From: a virus
Strand: one strand, 5' to 3'
IMG/VR virus record: IMGVR_UViG_3300045256_000282
Span: 85,069-149,068 of that record
DNA length: 64,000 nt
Shown here piece by piece: positions 10,931 to 59,778 of the stretch. The stretch's first letter is position 1; every line of letters starts with the position of its first letter. A program made the position numbers and the translations under genes. Below the pieces are notes generated by a model. The model had not been told where the DNA came from. It saw only the letters and a program-made list of their open reading frames with translations, and searched no databases.

Positions 10931-13900
10931 ATGGCAACTCCGCAACCAAAGTCATACGAACAGTTTCTTGGCGACATGCTGAGAGCCTATATCGCAAAAA
11001 CGGGCATTAACGACCTGAACACCGGGTCGGCTGTTACCGCATTCTATGAGGCCGTAGCCCTTGAGATCGCACGTACAAGCGGGGATGTGTTCCAGCTACT
11101 TAGGGACCTTTCGGTTGATCGAGCTAAGGGTGATGCTCTTAGAAAGATCGCTAAGGACGAAGGTTTACAAGAACTCCCAGCTCGGGTTGCCTCTGGACAG
11201 GTTACGGTTACCGACACGTCCTTTTCAAAGATCTCAACTAAGATCTACGCCGGAGCAAATCCCCCTAACATCGGATCAAACACCATCCTGGTGTCTGATG
11301 CGACAGATTTTCCTGCAGTTGGCAGTGTTTATATCGGCAGAGGAAGCCCTAACGTTGAAGGACCTATAGCTTACTCAGCCAAGACCCCTATCGGCGGTTA
11401 TTGGGCCATCGTCCTTACCAGCCCTACTACAAAGTTTCATAACATAAACGAATCCGTTATCTTGGCTCAAGGTGGTGTTCGAAACATCCAGGCAGGAACC
11501 GTAGTACGCGCCCCCGCGTCCGGCTCTAGTCCAGATATCAACTTCTCTGTCACTAAGCCAGCGGTTATTCTTGACGGGGAAACGACGGTTGATGGCGTCC
11601 AAGTATCGGCTCAAGAGCCAGGTACGGGTGGGAACGTCCCTATCGGTGCTATCCGAGAATTTAGCGCAGACCCTTTTTCTGGCGCTTCCGTAACAAACGC
11701 ACTCCCCTTTAAGACTGGGCGCGACGTTGAAACAGATGAAGAACTTCAGATTCGAATCAAAAGAGCAAGACTATCAAAAGGACTTGGTACGGTTCTTGCG
11801 GTTAAAAACTCCGTTATCGGAGCAACTCCTTCTGATGAAAATGCCACAATCGTAAGTTCAGAGATCTTAACTAGTTCTGATGGGCTGACAACCCTGTTCG
11901 TGGATGACGGAACCGGGTACGAGTCAAAAACTAATGGCGTTGGGATCGAAGTTTTAGTCGATGCAGCCATCGGCGGTGAAGATCATTTCCAACTTAAAAC
12001 GGGTGGAAGACAGACAAGCATCGCAAAAGCTTTTATCGTTAGTAACCTGAAGGCCCCGTTTGACGTTGCCGGTACCGACAAGCTTTCTATCTCTATCGGC
12101 GGCACCGTAACCGAGCACACCTTTTCTGATTCAGACTTCGTAAGCCCAGGTGGCGCTACCGGGTATGAGATCGTTGCATCTATCAATGCAAATACCGCAC
12201 TAGGTTTTAGCGCTGCTACGGTAAACGGTGGAACTCAGATTATCCTCTTTGGTAAGGTAGAATCAAACGAAGCAATTCAGGCGCAAGAAGTCACCTCTGG
12301 AAGAAACGTTGCTACCTTGATCGGTCTTCCTTCAAACAAGGTCGAAACTGCTCGTCTGTTTAAGAATAAGGTACCTCTAAGTAAGGATGGAGCAAAAGCA
12401 ACTATAAGCTCCGCAAAGCAAGTTGATTGGTCAGCATCGATCGCTTCTGGAGACACCCTCATTCTTTCTGTTGATGGAACGGCCTCAATTACTTATTCTA
12501 TCTTAGACGCAGATTTTATCGCTCAAGGAACTTACACTACGGTTTCTGCTGGAAACAGTCTTGAAAGCTGGGTTGCAGTACTCAACAATAAGCTGACAGG
12601 AGTTACGGCAGCAATCGTTGGCGAGAGAATCACGATCACCTCGAATCTTGGCCAATCTAATCGCGCTAAGGTGTCAATTGATGCATCCTCCACTTTAGTT
12701 ACCAAGGGTATGTTCAGCACAGCCGAAGGCTTGACGTCTTCTGGTAAGGCTGCAGACTATCAACTTTCTAGAAATACGGCGCAAGTCAGACTAAACACGC
12801 CGCTATCTGCCGGAGACAGCCTTACTGCAGGTACTCAAGATACTGAAGCTAGGATTCAATCCTCTCGGATCTTAGGAGGAACGGTCACCCTCTCCTCAGA
12901 CGCCTATTTTTGGCTAATGGTCGACGACGAGTTGGCTTCTTTGGTATCGACTGCGGTCGTAGCTAATACCATCATCAACGTCACAAAACCTTCTGCAAAT
13001 ATCGTAAGATACAGCTCAACTTCTCCTAGCGCCTTCTCCAACGTACAAGTTGGCGACTACGTTATCGTGTGGAGTCAAGAGCTTAGTGCAGCCAACCGAC
13101 TTGAAGGCAGAGTACATGCAGTATCGGCCCTTAACTTGGATATAAAAGTAGCCTCCGCCGAATATGCCGCCGCTGTTGTCGAAGGTCCTATTGTTTTTCA
13201 AGACGGTTTTGTAGTTTTAAGAAGCAAAAAAGTTCCTCAAAAATTTAAAGTTGGAGCTGGCACTAAGAGCTTAAGTGAGATAGCTGATGAGCTAAATCTT
13301 CAATCAACCAACTGTAAGTTCTCAGTTTTTGATGACGAGATTCTTGTACTTAATACACTTACAAAAACCGATAGCGGAGCTATCCTGGTTGTTACCGCAG
13401 ACACGAACGCTAAGCCGATATCTTTGCCTGTCGGAACCTCTAATACCAGCAACGAATCACTATATGCTTTTTACGAGAGCGGTTTTATTGAGGGTGGATT
13501 TCCTCTTTTTGTTCATTCTGACTTTGCTAGTGACTCAAGCGGAGTTCCTCCAGATTCTTACATCTCGTCAATCGGGACTGGAATTAACTTGTCTGCCGCT
13601 GGACTTGATCCCAACTTCATAGTTGGTTACTTGCAGCCGTACGGGAATATTTTGGACGCGCTTTCGCCATCAGAAAATACTCCCCTCGATAGCTATTCTG
13701 GATCTAACATCTCTATCGAGCAAGATAAGTTTGTTAAACGTCTCCGAGTAGGAGATCGCTGGTACGCAGCAAACCCTCTTGATTTTGGACAAGAAGAAGA
13801 GATGATCGTCGTTCTTGATGGGGATGCGTCAAACAAAACGTTTACGGTTCCTTTTTATCGTAGAACGAAGACCAACTCCACCCTTGCAGTAAATCCTAAC

Positions 13901-37411: not shown

Positions 37412-37779
37412 GCTTCCTCCTCTATCTTCTTTCTTTCTGCTCGTCTAACGTCTACGCTCTTAGCAAACCTTGCCGCGATCTGCTCAAGATCTTTTGCTTG
37501 GTTGGCTAAAATTATCTTATCATTATCGGAAGCGTCTGACTCCATGATCTTCTTGTACATACCAGTAATCCCGTGGGCAAGGTACGCGCAAAGAGCAAAC
37601 ATGTCTGTTCCGGGGTCTAGGTTGATCCTAGATTCAAGGGTTACCTCGTTCCTGATCCTAGCAGAAACTGATGGAGTCTTTTGACCGTAAGCATTTCGAT
37701 CTTGTCTGGATAGGCGATCTACCGCATCTGAGTAAGATTCTCCATCCAACAAGTTATAAAGCCTATGCTCGTTACTCAT
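37270..37779 (-). CDS. Protein of unknown function overlapping the aminotransferase
   Basis: A 169-residue, charged, mostly helical protein. Its start overlaps the stop of the CYTH-HNH gene by 4 nt. Residues ~40-125 are a helical core (MFALCAYLAHGITGMYKKIM, then a Lys/Arg/Glu-rich helix). The last ~47 residues share DNA with the aminotransferase start in another frame. The family is not recognised. Its place between the CYTH-HNH fusion and the aminotransferase suggests linked expression. Confidence 0.62.
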   Translation of the reverse strand: MSNEHRLYNLLDGESYSDAVDRLSRQDRNAYGQKTPSVSARIRNEVTLESRINLDPGTDMFALCAYLAHGITGMYKKIMESDASDNDKIILANQAKDLEQIAARFAKSVDVRRAERKKIEEEACKKSTSLDGETRTESEKPLFKQHLLSFLSRCQSTLSGILSTKAKKN

Positions 37780-38996
37780 TTCTTGACCCTCTTATCCTTA
37801 TCGTGCCTGTAAAGCTGCCTTTCCTTGATACTCTTCTGTAAATGCTCATCAAACCATAGCGGTCTAATGTTTTCTGCTCTTGCAGCTAGGGCCAACTCGT
37901 CGGGGTTCTTAAGATTAAAGGACGCAAGAGGTATTACATGATCTAACTGCCACTTGCCCCTGCCGTTTCCCCAATTCTCCCATGTCATCTTTTGACCGGA
38001 TATGGGGTCGTCGTAAAACTTAGACTCTATATAGGTCTTAAAATCTTCGTAGGACATACCGATCAATTTTTTAGTGGTACTGTTTTTTTGAGCTTTCTTA
38101 GACTTTAAAGCCGAGCTTAGTCTGCTTCTGAGCAATAGGCTGATCTTGTAAACAAGATCTTCTTTATACCTTTCAGCCTGTCTTATGGATGCCTGCTTTT
38201 TAAGCTTATCTTTATTCTTTTTACGGTACTCTAACATGTAGGAGGCCCTAGCCTCCACTGTCTTTTCTCTCCAAAGCTTCTTTTCGGCCTTTCTCTTGCT
38301 TGATTTGTTTCTAATAGATGTACAATCTCTACAAACATCCCCCGGCTTAACCTTACCGTTTTTTCTTTCGCAGAAGAATTTCAATGGCAATATTCTAGCG
38401 CAAGATCCGCAAAACGTCTCGCTATCAGGAATAGGCGTCATCTTCCCGCTATAGATCTCGTACAGACTCTTGGTGACACGTTTATTTATGTGTAAGCCTA
38501 ATCGAGATTCCCAAAGCCTGACGAGCTTTTTAGACAACTTGTAGTCTTGACCTTTTTCGGCCTCGATCTCAATGAACCGCTTGTTCTTAAAATTTTTACA
38601 GAATACGTCGTAGATTACAACAGAAACGGACCCCTCTTTGTCGGAAAGCCAAAAGATCTGGCAATCTTTATAAAGCCGAAAAGCTTTGTGATACCCCATC
38701 ATGCGGATACCCTTAAGCACTCCCTTGATCGGAGTCCCTGTCAAATCCCAGTCGATCTCGTTTCTAAGGAACGCACTTCTGAGACCTAATCGTGTTTTGA
38801 ACGTGATCTCTTCCTTGTCGGCGCTATGTCTCCACCTAAGTACGGATGGGACGGCTTTATGTTCATAATAAGTATCTGGACCCATGATCCGCAGCTTTTT
38901 CTTGGGTTTAAAAGAAGATACAAGTTCGCAAAAACGATCCCAGTCAACGTGGTCTGCCTTGTACTTTTGCTCAATTTCGAGGTAACGGGTGTCCAT
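37776..38996 (-). CDS. CYTH domain - zinc finger - HNH nuclease fusion
   Basis: A 406-residue protein. Residues 1-182 match the CYTH / triphosphate tunnel fold: E7-x-E9-x-K11, R54-x-R56, K67-x-R69, E80, R107, D130 and E143-x-E145 in the expected order, and a basic end (INKRVTKSLY). CYTH enzymes bind triphosphates or polyphosphates with metal ions. Residues 196-225 hold C196/C199 and C222/C225, a zinc-finger pattern. After a very basic helical stretch (227-310), residues ~310-390 form an HNH domain: WQLDHVIPL (D352-H353), N376 in ENIRPL and K388 in HLQKS. I do not know another protein with this domain order. Activity as triphosphatase, cyclase-like enzyme or nucleotide sensor is open. Confidence 0.8.
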   Translation of the reverse strand: MDTRYLEIEQKYKADHVDWDRFCELVSSFKPKKKLRIMGPDTYYEHKAVPSVLRWRHSADKEEITFKTRLGLRSAFLRNEIDWDLTGTPIKGVLKGIRMMGYHKAFRLYKDCQIFWLSDKEGSVSVVIYDVFCKNFKNKRFIEIEAEKGQDYKLSKKLVRLWESRLGLHINKRVTKSLYEIYSGKMTPIPDSETFCGSCARILPLKFFCERKNGKVKPGDVCRDCTSIRNKSSKRKAEKKLWREKTVEARASYMLEYRKKNKDKLKKQASIRQAERYKEDLVYKISLLLRSRLSSALKSKKAQKNSTTKKLIGMSYEDFKTYIESKFYDDPISGQKMTWENWGNGRGKWQLDHVIPLASFNLKNPDELALAARAENIRPLWFDEHLQKSIKERQLYRHDKDKRVKK

Positions 38997-56395: not shown

Positions 56396-59215
56396 CTACT
56401 TTATCGGACAAACACCAGAAGCGCATTCTAAATCCAAATCGCTTGAACTTCCAGAGTCAGTTCCTTCCATCTTAATCGGCCTGATCTTCTTAGATAGCTC
56501 TTCAAACTTCTCCTTAGAAATAGCTTCTTTTGGAGCTTGTTTAAATCCGTGATCATTATGGCACAAGAAGCTGATTGTTTTCAAGCTCTTTAAATTCTCA
56601 GACAACCATTCCTTTAGTTTTGGAAGATCCTCTCGCTTATAATACACAGTAACAGAGCATGCCTGGTCTGCCCAGTGCTTTTGTGCCATCAGAAGAACGT
56701 CTAGTTGCTTCCAAGTATCAAAATTTTCGTCAGCACACGGCATGCCTTCTGGAGCTTCAAGGTAGAAGTCTACTACCATAGTGTTTTGGTCAAGAGTTCC
56801 GTCAAACCTAACTACTGGTTCCATGTAATGGCCAGCTTCTTTTAAGGCTGGAAGAAGCTTGTCGTTAGAGGCAAACCTGACTCTTTGAATCATATATCGC
56901 GAGTATGCTGGGTGAATTCCCTCACCTCGCTGATCAAGAAGCTTAGAGACAGTTCCAGAAGGCTTTACTACGGTAGTTCTGATGCTTTCTGGGATACCAA
57001 GTTCTTTTGAGTATTTTAAATTTTCTTTTTGAATAGCCTCATAAACCTTATCAAGAGTGTTTGGATTAAACAACGGGCTTTCTAAGCAACCCGTAATCCC
57101 AGTTCCGACTCTTCGGTTCTTTTTGATGATCTTTTCAATCTCAGGGTGGTGGTACTTCTCCATTGTTACCCTTTTTCCATAACGATGCATGAGTACCGCA
57201 GCCTCTACGAACTCACCTTCGTTGTCTAGGTTAGCTAGGGCAAGCTCTTGAAGGTTGCACGGCTCATAGGGTTCCAAGGTAGCTTCGGCGCACTGCCCAG
57301 TGACGATTCCGTTAAAGCAACCAAGATTTCTTTTAGGTTCTGTAAAACAATAAACTACGTCTGCTACCCCAGCCGGTTCTACTGAAACAACCGTAGTAAA
57401 CCTACCAGCATCTCTCTGCGGGGATGCTTCAAAATCTACCCGTTCTGTTTGCATACCAAGATCCAATAAGTCTTGTATCTGCGTAGAGCCAATAACCAGG
57501 CGCTTACTTTCCTGGCAATAGTAGTCGGCCATTCCGCCCTTACCATCGGGAAGCTGCTTGTAACCTGCTTCGTGCGAAGAGCAAATTTTAGAGTGTACCC
57601 CTAGCTTGGTCAACAATCTTTGAACCTTTGATAGGAATTTGTGATCTACCGAAGTTATTTGACAACCTCCCTCTATTGTTCTAGTGCCGTCTGAATCAAT
57701 AAGGCCAGCAAGCCAATCAAGCGAGGATTGTACCGACCAGTTTTCTGGGACAAAAGACTTGGGCTTTGCATCAAAACGGATAGAAACATATGTCCTATCC
57801 TGCTCTTGGGAATAAGAGCCCACCTCTACATCCAGCCTAGGTATGCACTTAATCTTATCTCCGTATACTGTAAAACCCGGATAATCGTCCGTACCATCTC
57901 CAGACAGAAATCCTTGGCTATAGGCCCAACTAACGGTATCTCCGCCATGAATGACGGGGTACTTATGTTTAATAAGCTTTTCGCCTGGTTCTAGGTATTG
58001 TGCTTCTTTGCGCTCAGTGCCACCCCTATAATCGGTAGAAAGTACAAACTTGTGAGCAAGCGTGCAGGTTAGCGACCGACCATCGCTTAAGGTGACCTTC
58101 ACCATCTCTTGGTTGTGTCCGGTTACTTTAGGCGTAACTTCTGACCATTCAAATCCATTCCAAACATTGACTGTCTTTCCAACTAGATTTTGAATTTCTT
58201 GGTATCCGGTGTCAGTAAGAATTTCAGTCCCAGCGGGTACGCAGGGATTGACTATAACAGCTCCATCTTTCTTTTTTTCTCCCATGCGTGCGTAGGTCTG
58301 CATGTTCTTACGATTTACGATGCCAAAAGGTTCTCCCGACTCATACGTTTTCCAGAATAAAGGGTGCAAATCTTCTACGTCATCGACACATACCGAGAGG
58401 TTGGCAAACGCTCTATAGGTAGGAATAGAGCCCAAATCCCAACGTTTAGATCTTAGGTATTCTTTATCAAATGGATCTCCTAAGATAAGAATGGCGGATC
58501 TTCGAACGTTACCAGCAACTACCATCTCGCCAGTTGCACAGATCAGGTCCATAGCATCGATTGGTCTAATAGCCTTACCTTCACGCCTATCAAGTATCTC
58601 ACAAACGTTTTCAACAAACCTAATTAGTGGAGCTGGTCCAGAGGCTGTTCCACCAAATCCTTTGATCGCCTCTCCGTAACCTCTTACGCAAACCGTAGAG
58701 TAGCTAAAACTTTTTCCAGTTCTAAAGTAGGAATCTAGCACCCTTTCAAATAACTCACACCAACCTTCACGGCTGTCTGGAACTATAAAATCTGCATCTT
58801 TTGTTCCTTTGTGCGTGATGTTAACACCGTTCTTGATCGTAGGGAGTTTTGAAACATACCGATGCTCAACAGACAGACCAACTCCGCCTCCCAACATCAA
58901 AAGATCCATGGCTACGACAAAAGATCTAGGCTTATCGGCAACTAATCCCCAGCAATTATTTAAGGCAATTCCGCCCAAAGCTGCGTGAGAAGGAGCACCC
59001 GAGTACCACAATCCTCGACCTGCGGGGATAGCTTTTCTTGAAAGCATAAACTTTTCAAGCTTCTTGATTTCTTTCTCAGAAATGTTGTGATCTTTTATGT
59101 TGCCTCGAATAACGCGTTCTACCGTCTTCTCCCAGCTCTCTTTTACTCCGCTATCCGTTCTAGCGTACGTCCTGCTGTATACTACCTGGGCGAGGTTTGA
59201 CCAATTTTTGGGCAT
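56396..59215 (-). CDS. Monomeric class II ribonucleotide reductase (RTPR) with intein
   Basis: A 939-residue precursor: extein 622 residues, intein 317 (residues 325-641). The extein matches adenosylcobalamin-dependent ribonucleoside triphosphate reductase: YSRTYAR, SGPAPLIRF, VVAGNVRRSA, VKPSGTVSKL and an end of CASGVCPIK. All five catalytic Cys are present: C88 (NNCWG), C642 (radical Cys after splicing), C653 (EPCNL), C931 and C936. The extein is shorter than the 739-residue Lactobacillus enzyme. The enzyme makes dNTPs and needs B12. It would not depend on oxygen or a second subunit, which suits a phage with a variable host environment. A DNA patch upstream encodes an HNH gene overlapping by one base. 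Confidence 0.9.
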   Translation of the reverse strand: MPKNWSNLAQVVYSRTYARTDSGVKESWEKTVERVIRGNIKDHNISEKEIKKLEKFMLSRKAIPAGRGLWYSGAPSHAALGGIALNNCWGLVADKPRSFVVAMDLLMLGGGVGLSVEHRYVSKLPTIKNGVNITHKGTKDADFIVPDSREGWCELFERVLDSYFRTGKSFSYSTVCVRGYGEAIKGFGGTASGPAPLIRFVENVCEILDRREGKAIRPIDAMDLICATGEMVVAGNVRRSAILILGDPFDKEYLRSKRWDLGSIPTYRAFANLSVCVDDVEDLHPLFWKTYESGEPFGIVNRKNMQTYARMGEKKKDGAVIVNPCVPAGTEILTDTGYQEIQNLVGKTVNVWNGFEWSEVTPKVTGHNQEMVKVTLSDGRSLTCTLAHKFVLSTDYRGGTERKEAQYLEPGEKLIKHKYPVIHGGDTVSWAYSQGFLSGDGTDDYPGFTVYGDKIKCIPRLDVEVGSYSQEQDRTYVSIRFDAKPKSFVPENWSVQSSLDWLAGLIDSDGTRTIEGGCQITSVDHKFLSKVQRLLTKLGVHSKICSSHEAGYKQLPDGKGGMADYYCQESKRLVIGSTQIQDLLDLGMQTERVDFEASPQRDAGRFTTVVSVEPAGVADVVYCFTEPKRNLGCFNGIVTGQCAEATLEPYEPCNLQELALANLDNEGEFVEAAVLMHRYGKRVTMEKYHHPEIEKIIKKNRRVGTGITGCLESPLFNPNTLDKVYEAIQKENLKYSKELGIPESIRTTVVKPSGTVSKLLDQRGEGIHPAYSRYMIQRVRFASNDKLLPALKEAGHYMEPVVRFDGTLDQNTMVVDFYLEAPEGMPCADENFDTWKQLDVLLMAQKHWADQACSVTVYYKREDLPKLKEWLSENLKSLKTISFLCHNDHGFKQAPKEAISKEKFEELSKKIRPIKMEGTDSGSSSDLDLECASGVCPIK
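57293..58243 (-). mobile_element. Intein with LAGLIDADG homing endonuclease in the RNR gene
   Basis: Encodes residues 325-641 of the reductase precursor. The N-terminal splice block is CVPAGTEILTDTGYQ; block B has CTLAHKF with the conserved His. Two LAGLIDADG-type motifs, GFLSGDGTD (435-443) and WLAGLIDSDG (501-510), keep an acidic residue each, so the endonuclease may be active. TKLGVHSKI (536-544) is a typical later block. The end reads CFNGIVTGQ, followed by extein C642. The last residue is Gln instead of Asn and the usual penultimate His is Gly, so splicing chemistry is non-standard. It sits just before the radical Cys of the NPC motif, which serves as the +1 nucleophile. Confidence 0.88.
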
Positions 59216-59778
59216 TAGGGCGTCTCCTTCTTTGACAACTTTTTTTGCTGTTTTTCTATTTTTCTACGTGCTTTTGCTTCTTTTTCTGCTTCTTTTAACC
59301 TAACATAAGAGTCATATTGTAAGCGCCAGCTCTCTACAGATCCGCCACTTTGAGCTATCCCTCTTCTTATAAAGTTCTCTTCCGCAGTTTTTAATGCGTG
59401 ACAGGACTTCTTTGAACCCTTAGGCAAAGATTTGATCGGAGTACTACACAGCACCTGGAGATTGCTTTGTGAACAAAATATCCCAGATACCATATCATCC
59501 ATGCTCATGTCTTCTTCTTTAACGTCCAAAGGAACGGCTGGGTTTTTATGGTCAACCTGTACAAACTTTTGAGGGAACAAACCCTCACAAACAGCACAAG
59601 CATACCTTACTTGGTTTTTCTTACCGGGTGTTCCGTCCTTCTTAAGGGCCGGGGGCAATTCTACCCTGGCCCTTTGAAGAACCTCTCTCATTCTTGGAGA
59701 TTGTCTGAAAGCCCGTCTGAGTGCGCCTTTGATAGCCCTGCGTTCTTCTGGGGTTAGATCAGGCTTTTGATCCTTCAC
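59215..59778 (-). CDS. HNH endonuclease-like protein (GTG start)
   Basis: A 187-residue protein. Residues ~60-130 form an HNH-type domain: CAVC (61-64), VDHKNPAVPLD (about 74-84, central Asp-His), NLQVLC (about 106-111) and SCHALK (about 125-130). Both ends are basic. The start is GTG at 59778, inside the end of the upstream gene (20-nt overlap). The gene directly precedes the reductase, and free-standing HNH genes beside RNR genes are common homing elements in T4-like phages. It may alternatively be a resident nuclease. Confidence 0.75.
   Translation of the reverse strand: MKDQKPDLTPEERRAIKGALRRAFRQSPRMREVLQRARVELPPALKKDGTPGKKNQVRYACAVCEGLFPQKFVQVDHKNPAVPLDVKEEDMSMDDMVSGIFCSQSNLQVLCSTPIKSLPKGSKKSCHALKTAEENFIRRGIAQSGGSVESWRLQYDSYVRLKEAEKEAKARRKIEKQQKKLSKKETP

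Follow-up and report, generated by a model that had tools for sequence, protein, structure and literature searches.

A glutamine-terminated, probably splicing-competent intein before the radical cysteine of a phage class II reductase and its reductase-specific family

The class II reductase gene of the phage analyzed here is interrupted by what appears to be a splicing-competent class 1 intein, a member of a Gln-terminated family specific to reductases, with a LAGLIDADG endonuclease that is probably still active; judging from its sequence, we put the probability of this reading at about 0.85. The gene lies in the window, by which we mean the whole 64-kb stretch of DNA that was analyzed, namely the final part of a 149-kb phage record (record positions 85069-149068) that derives from a metagenomic assembly. 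Genes for a DNA polymerase and for SbcC-like, UvsX-like and DnaB-like proteins surround the reductase in the window, and the enzyme is the one copy of class II type in the whole 149-kb record. Its reading frame has no internal stop and runs from an N-extein ending in AVIVNP through the intein (CVPAGTEILT...CFNGIVTGQ) into CAEATLEPYEPCNLQ (table 1).

Table 1. Coordinates of the reductase precursor, its exteins and the parts of its intein (positions in the window)
Feature	Position	Strand	Remarks
Precursor ORF, adenosylcobalamin-dependent class II monomeric ribonucleoside-triphosphate reductase plus intein	56396..59215	-	939 aa, open frame
N-extein	58244..59215	-	324 aa, end ...AVIVNP; Cys88 (C119 equivalent) at 58952-58954
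Intein	57293..58243	-	317 aa, C1...TGQ317; 317 codons, no stop
Block A CVPAGTEILTDTG (starts CVPAGTEILT), Cys1 nucleophile	58205..58243	-	TIGR01445; Cys1 in 106/106 relatives
Block B GRSLTCTLAHKFVL (LTCTLAHKF), T61 and H64 (TxxH)	58040..58081	-	H64 in 106/106, T61 in 104/106 relatives
LAGLIDADG homing endonuclease region, about intein residues 96-285	57389..57958	-	PF14528, purifying selection, Foldseek
LAGLIDADG motif 1, YSQGFLSGDGT, catalytic acid D116	57890..57922	-	Acid kept in 96/98 full-length relatives
LAGLIDADG motif 2, LAGLIDSDG, catalytic acid D185	57686..57712	-	Acid kept in 96/98 full-length relatives
Blocks F and G VVYCFTEPKRNLGCFNGIVTGQ	57293..57358	-	Cys299 (F:4), Asn306 (F:13), Thr315 (G:5), Gly316 (G:6), Gln317 (G:7)
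+1 Cys of C-extein, radical Cys (C408 equivalent)	57290..57292	-	1L1L alignment
C-extein	56396..57292	-	298 aa plus stop; C419 equivalent at 57257-57259

The nature of the host protein, given as a class II reductase in the original prediction, is borne out by the TIGR02505 model, which matches the precursor with the intein in place (E 2e-100; 337 bits, slightly below the cut-off of 340 bits), and by the monomeric reductase (RTPR) of L. leichmannii, whose structure 1L1L aligns across the length of the spliced protein with an E value of 5e-83. In this alignment the Cys at position +1 corresponds to C408, the thiyl-radical Cys, so that the residue required for splicing is also the catalytic one, as had been proposed, while Cys336 (numbering of the spliced protein) and Cys88 correspond to C419 and C119, respectively. 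The match to the RTPR family and the integrity of all three equivalents of active-site Cys place the enzyme in the monomeric RTPR/NrdJ class. Removal of the 317 codons at 57293-58243 regenerates the class II motif NPCAEATLEPYEPCNL, and relatives often have empty alleles with the same junction; the boundaries of the intein, predicted to lie within NP|C, are therefore exact to the base. The GC content of the intein (45.4%) compared with that of its exteins (42.9-44.4%) gives no signal of recent acquisition. Directly upstream, a gene at 59215-59778 on the minus strand overlaps the reductase gene start by 1 base and encodes an HNH endonuclease-like protein (phrog_1985, E 6e-12), possibly a free-standing homing endonuclease.

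The insert has the features of class 1 inteins: it is in frame, begins with Cys1, is followed by Cys at +1, contains the splicing blocks A, B, F and G and is predicted to adopt a HINT fold. It scores above the cut-off of TIGR01445, matches PF14528 (LAGLIDADG_3) at residues 177-259 with an E value of 1.6e-10 and matches PF14890 with an E value of 2e-6, which is under the gathering score. A confident AlphaFold2 model, built with 43 aligned relatives and five extein residues on each side (mean pLDDT 93.8, pTM 0.91), combines HINT and LAGLIDADG domains, and Foldseek matches its LAGLIDADG region to PI-SceI, PI-PfuI and I-DmoI. The two LAGLIDADG motifs had been noted before together with their acidic residues, and each indeed retains its catalytic acid (D116 in YSQGFLSGDG and D185 in LAGLIDSDG). 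Block F reads VYCFTEPKRNLGCF and block G reads NGIVTGQ, followed by Cys. The intein thus ends in TGQ|C, with Gln where Asn is usual, which defines it as Gln-type and agrees with the reported Gly-Gln end in place of His-Asn; in addition, position F:13 is occupied by Asn rather than His, and with Gly at G:6 both of the His that usually assist splicing are absent.

Relatives were collected by pattern scans of IMG/VR and GTDB genomes and by tblastn on phage and plasmid records, which produced a set of 106 distinct inteins including that of the window. The family is large, mostly phage-borne and present in both class I and class II reductases. Its hosts include Vibrio phage ICP1, phages of Salicola, Aeromonas, Staphylococcus, Rheinheimera, Bacteroides, Burkholderia and others, as well as a Nostoc plasmid, Hydrococcus, a TM6 bacterium and a Zixiibacteriota bacterium. 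Gln is the last residue (G:7) in 79 members and Asn in the other 27. The penultimate residue (G:6) is Gly in 87, Ala in nine, Ser in five, Tyr in two and His, Met or Leu in one each, the complete GQ end being found in 66/106. Consequently, the rarity implied for this combination of features does not hold, Gln next to the radical Cys being normal in a large phage family, and the intein of the window is a further case of a known kind, not a one-off oddity. In a literature search outside subscription journals, we came across no account of the Gln-ended radical-Cys family in its entirety, of its mixture of Gln and Asn or of its loss of the penultimate His.

The comparison with inteins at the same site, suggested in the original prediction, shows that nearly all of the 106 lie directly before the radical Cys: 51 at NP|C, 38 at NL|C, 11 at NA|C and one at QL|C. 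Of the remainder, three are at the second active-site Cys (the C419 equivalent), one follows HN and one is shifted by one residue. The share of Gln is similar at NP|C (36/51), at NL-type sites, that is NL|C or QL|C (29/39), and at NA|C (9/11), which rules out that the terminal residue depends on the host site. Family members at the second active-site Cys (L048, L049, L050, L051 and L052, inserted in EF|CNL or GF|CNL) end in Tyr-Gln or His-Gln. The shifted intein (L192, 2501-3487) has the arrangement NLC|C...GQ|SEI, which puts the radical Cys at position -1 and makes Ser the nucleophile at +1. Among near-relative reductases, 66 of the 75 scored alleles are empty at the exact NP|C junction and nine are occupied, five by members of the family, one by an intein of the HNH type with a QQ end and three by inteins ending in Asn, indicating that the NP|C codons have been invaded by several kinds of intein. 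The HNH-type intein (L129, about 1000-2375) also has a Gln end (ICINNQQ|C), apparently as an independent case. Moreover, the reductase containing the allele that pairs with the window intein in the tree (L003, 2147-5566) has a second intein at its C119 equivalent (LNN|C...VTGN|C), and an insert ending in SN|CW is present at the same Cys in L119; two active-site Cys of one enzyme can thus carry inteins.

The most likely course of splicing would follow the four standard steps, with cyclization of Gln as the third. An N-S acyl shift at Cys1, probably aided by T61 and H64 to judge from the family, would be followed by transfer of the N-extein to the radical Cys at +1, forming a branched thioester; Gln317 would then cyclize to aminoglutarimide and free the intein, after which an S-N shift would produce the continuous sequence ...NP-C(radical)AE.... 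Release of aminoglutarimide by Gln-ended inteins has been described (PMC8175363). The insert breaks the loop that surrounds the radical Cys in the active site, so the precursor would be unable to reduce nucleotides, and the proposal that it is inactive until spliced is well supported on this basis. Since both His assisting the last step are absent, splicing may be slow; the Gln-ended Pol II inteins of P. abyssi and M. marisnigri splice slowly and are improved by Asn, and about 5% of functional inteins do not have the penultimate His (PMC4031507).

The last step is probably organized by Cys299 of block F together with Thr315, which are conserved where the two assisting His are not and thus would be the obvious candidates to compensate for their absence. 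Thr at G:5 is found in 94/106 members and Cys at F:4 in all 106, even if its invariance arises in part from selection, because most relatives were retrieved with patterns containing block-F or WNG motifs; in the unbiased subset of 13 members retrieved by tblastn alone, Cys at F:4 is present in 13/13 and the Gln end in 9/13. By comparison, His occupies F:13 in 72 of the 106 inteins, the others having Asn (19), Gly (14) or Ser (1), and G:6 in a single one. This pattern would also fit a different ending, in which splicing occurs but Cys299 and Thr315 take over from plain cyclization of Gln, for example by means of a second branched intermediate. Cys299 and Thr315 are two of the three residues of the Trp-Cys-Thr motif of class 3 inteins, which use the block-F Cys as a nucleophile (PMC7664689). 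We nevertheless consider such an ending unlikely, given that Gln or Asn is terminal in all 106 inteins, which favors cyclization of the side chain, and that all of them have Cys1, which is absent from class 3, with B:12 being Phe in 90 members and Trp in 15. The same invariant Cys1 and the motif Phe66-Cys299-Thr315 rule out that the intein of the window belongs to class 3 itself.

Evolutionary relationships were evaluated with a quick maximum-likelihood tree, from which the last two intein residues were left out and in which many forks are open and some branches are long. The intein of the window pairs with the L003 allele (support 100), which is 79% identical and located at the same site, inside a clade of 18 members that all end in Gln (SH-aLRT 98). 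Mapping of the terminal residue on the tree requires 19 changes between Gln and Asn, at least three of which are forced by well-supported branches, versus 26.4 with shuffled labels; the trait therefore clusters and yet has switched repeatedly, in a direction that change counts do not reveal. Within the clade of the window, the mean identity is 52.9% for inteins versus 37.0% for C-exteins (r = 0.18, 153 pairs), and in 118 of the 153 pairs intein identity exceeds C-extein identity by more than 10 points, as exemplified by L011, which shares 55% of the intein with the window and 30-36% of the exteins. The higher identity of the inteins indicates that the element has moved horizontally between reductase lineages.

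Substitutions are reported here as pN and pS instead of dN/dS, synonymous sites being saturated. Between the window and L003, pS reaches 0.885 (saturated). The two splicing parts have pN values of 0.09 and 0.06, compared with 0.20 for the endonuclease part and 0.22 for the C-extein; the endonuclease is therefore as constrained as the host protein. Intein-free alleles are 67-69% identical to the N-extein (pS 0.80-0.90, pN 0.23-0.27) and 67-73% identical to the C-extein. The splicing blocks, the endonuclease part and the exteins are all under purifying selection by this measure. Such constraint (pN 0.06-0.27, pS being high or saturated) is difficult to reconcile with an intein in decay that has lost the ability to splice and leaves a dead reductase, an idea to which the atypical residues at G:6 and G:7 and the absence of His at F:13 could give rise; as the GQ end recurs in the majority of the relatives and every active-site Cys of the reductase is intact, we regard it as very improbable.

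The view that the homing endonuclease in the intein of the window has probably stayed active is well supported by the preservation of both catalytic acids in 96 of the 98 full-length members, combined with the purifying selection on this part of the protein. After excision, it would cut intein-free reductase genes at their conserved NPC codons, and repair would then copy the intein into them; imprecise removal, on the other hand, would destroy the catalytic Cys, which would protect the intein from loss. Intein-free alleles that may offer such a target are L084 and L109, in which 35/48 bases agree with the rejoined site of the window. It is conceivable that splicing has been co-opted as a redox switch, in which a disulfide among Cys1, the +1 Cys and Cys299 would let the reductase mature in a reduced cell or after host takeover. 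A disulfide between Cys1 and the +1 Cys does block the Gln-ended Pol II intein of P. abyssi until it is reduced (PMC8175363), and nearly all members of the family have the three Cys (the +1 residue is Ser in 1/106). However, the Cys at these positions are required for splicing in any case, the predominance of near-relative reductases without an intein at NP|C indicates that no such switch is needed, and the retained endonuclease and the incongruent phylogeny suit a selfish element, so that we consider a regulatory role quite improbable. The same phage contains a second LAGLIDADG-type intein, outside the window (L002 178-2124, record about 12370-13551), with the sequence HPH|CFTGDT...NGIVTG-N|CRCT in a MuF-like protein with an HPHC...RCT motif; its last residue is Asn, and it is distantly related to the intein of the reductase (E 4e-8). 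Within the window, an ORF at 37776-38996 on the minus strand resembles endonuclease VII in its C-terminal half (phrog_1035); the roughly 190 residues in front of this half are of a different kind (starting IEQKYKAD and CYTH-like by eye).

Previous work regarded inteins ending in Gln as variants that are recovering, to differing degrees, from loss of a catalytic residue (PMC4031507). With the present survey, Gln-type splicing can be tested as a trait of a lineage, since Gln is in the majority in a mainly phage family that spans class I and class II reductases and has Asn-ended sisters at the same codon. We tentatively suggest, at somewhat less than even odds, that Gln is the settled and probably ancestral end of a lineage that is specialized on the radical-Cys codon across reductase classes, has switched repeatedly between Gln and Asn and has a catalytic set of its own (Cys1, TxxH, Cys at F:4, Thr at G:5, Gly at G:6 and Gln at G:7) that replaces the two His. 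If true, this would amount to a chemical subtype of class 1 splicing and not to a series of damaged intermediates. Near-matched natural sets (Gln-ended L182 with Asn-ended L186 and L198; Gln-ended L046 with Asn-ended L190) allow direct tests of Gln versus Asn, including the cost and chemistry of their release and the roles of His at F:13, Cys at F:4 and Thr at G:5. The family also includes mini-inteins of 131-147 aa (L005, L056, L057, L058, L061, L063, L064 and L083), which could serve as tools.

A Gln-type intein of a reductase has been known since 1998 from Chilo iridescent virus (CIV). The CIV intein was named Gln-type (PMC549080) and is reported to splice with higher efficiency when it ends in Gln rather than Asn (PMC4031507). 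Allelic RIR1-l inteins have been reported from bacteria, phages and iridescent viruses (PMC1635734), and judging from family members in phages at NL|C, the insertion site in the window may be the RIR1-l one. From its description, the CIV RIR1 intein resembles that of the window in its position in a reductase large subunit, its C-terminal Gln and its full length, but resides in an insect virus rather than a phage. Three sources consulted for its insertion codon (PMC2814812, PMC5874633 and PMC7090010) were of no help. The nearest viral models to the window intein are reductase large subunits, one from a marseillevirus-like virus (40% identity, TM 0.89) and the others from the phages phiTE of Pectobacterium and SP-3 of Salmonella; the fold match with the marseillevirus reductase intein, together with the 39 NL-type members of the family, makes common descent with the CIV intein likely. 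Closer at hand, the NrdA intein of Vibrio phage ICP1 and its relatives in phages of Rheinheimera, Staphylococcus, Aeromonas and Salicola belong to the same family, with about 40-42% identity to the intein of the window. They share with it the radical-Cys site (NL|C), the TGQ|C end and the LAGLIDADG endonuclease, but differ in having a class I reductase as host and Gly or His at F:13; a putative intein in ICP1 has been recorded, with no comment on its end in the part of the source available to us (PMC9040626).

The class II reductase of Thermus phage G20c, in which a 'likely intein' was mentioned and set aside (PMC6459318), has the same NP|C site, but its intein (L007) ends in SGN|C, is distant and falls outside the family in the tree. 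In another Thermus phage, TSP4 (L006 1441-4290, a record marked UNVERIFIED), the reductase is annotated as two ORFs because its intein contains a stop directly behind block B, the usual break point of split inteins; this intein is possibly split, and nrdJ of phiYS40 is similarly split (PMC3653736). The RIR2 intein of Aquifex aeolicus, for which splicing in the absence of the penultimate His is reported (Chen et al. 2000, ref. 23 in PMC8772380), differs from that of the window in that it interrupts the R2 subunit, between iron ligands. Among solved structures, the nearest are the TliVMA intein and PI-SceI, followed further down by PI-PfuI, all with HINT and LAGLIDADG domains (Foldseek E 1e-14 to 2e-8), and PI-PfuI is also the best profile match (E 6e-12). 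All three are longer than the intein of the window and only 12-20% identical to it, and two of them have VMA hosts.
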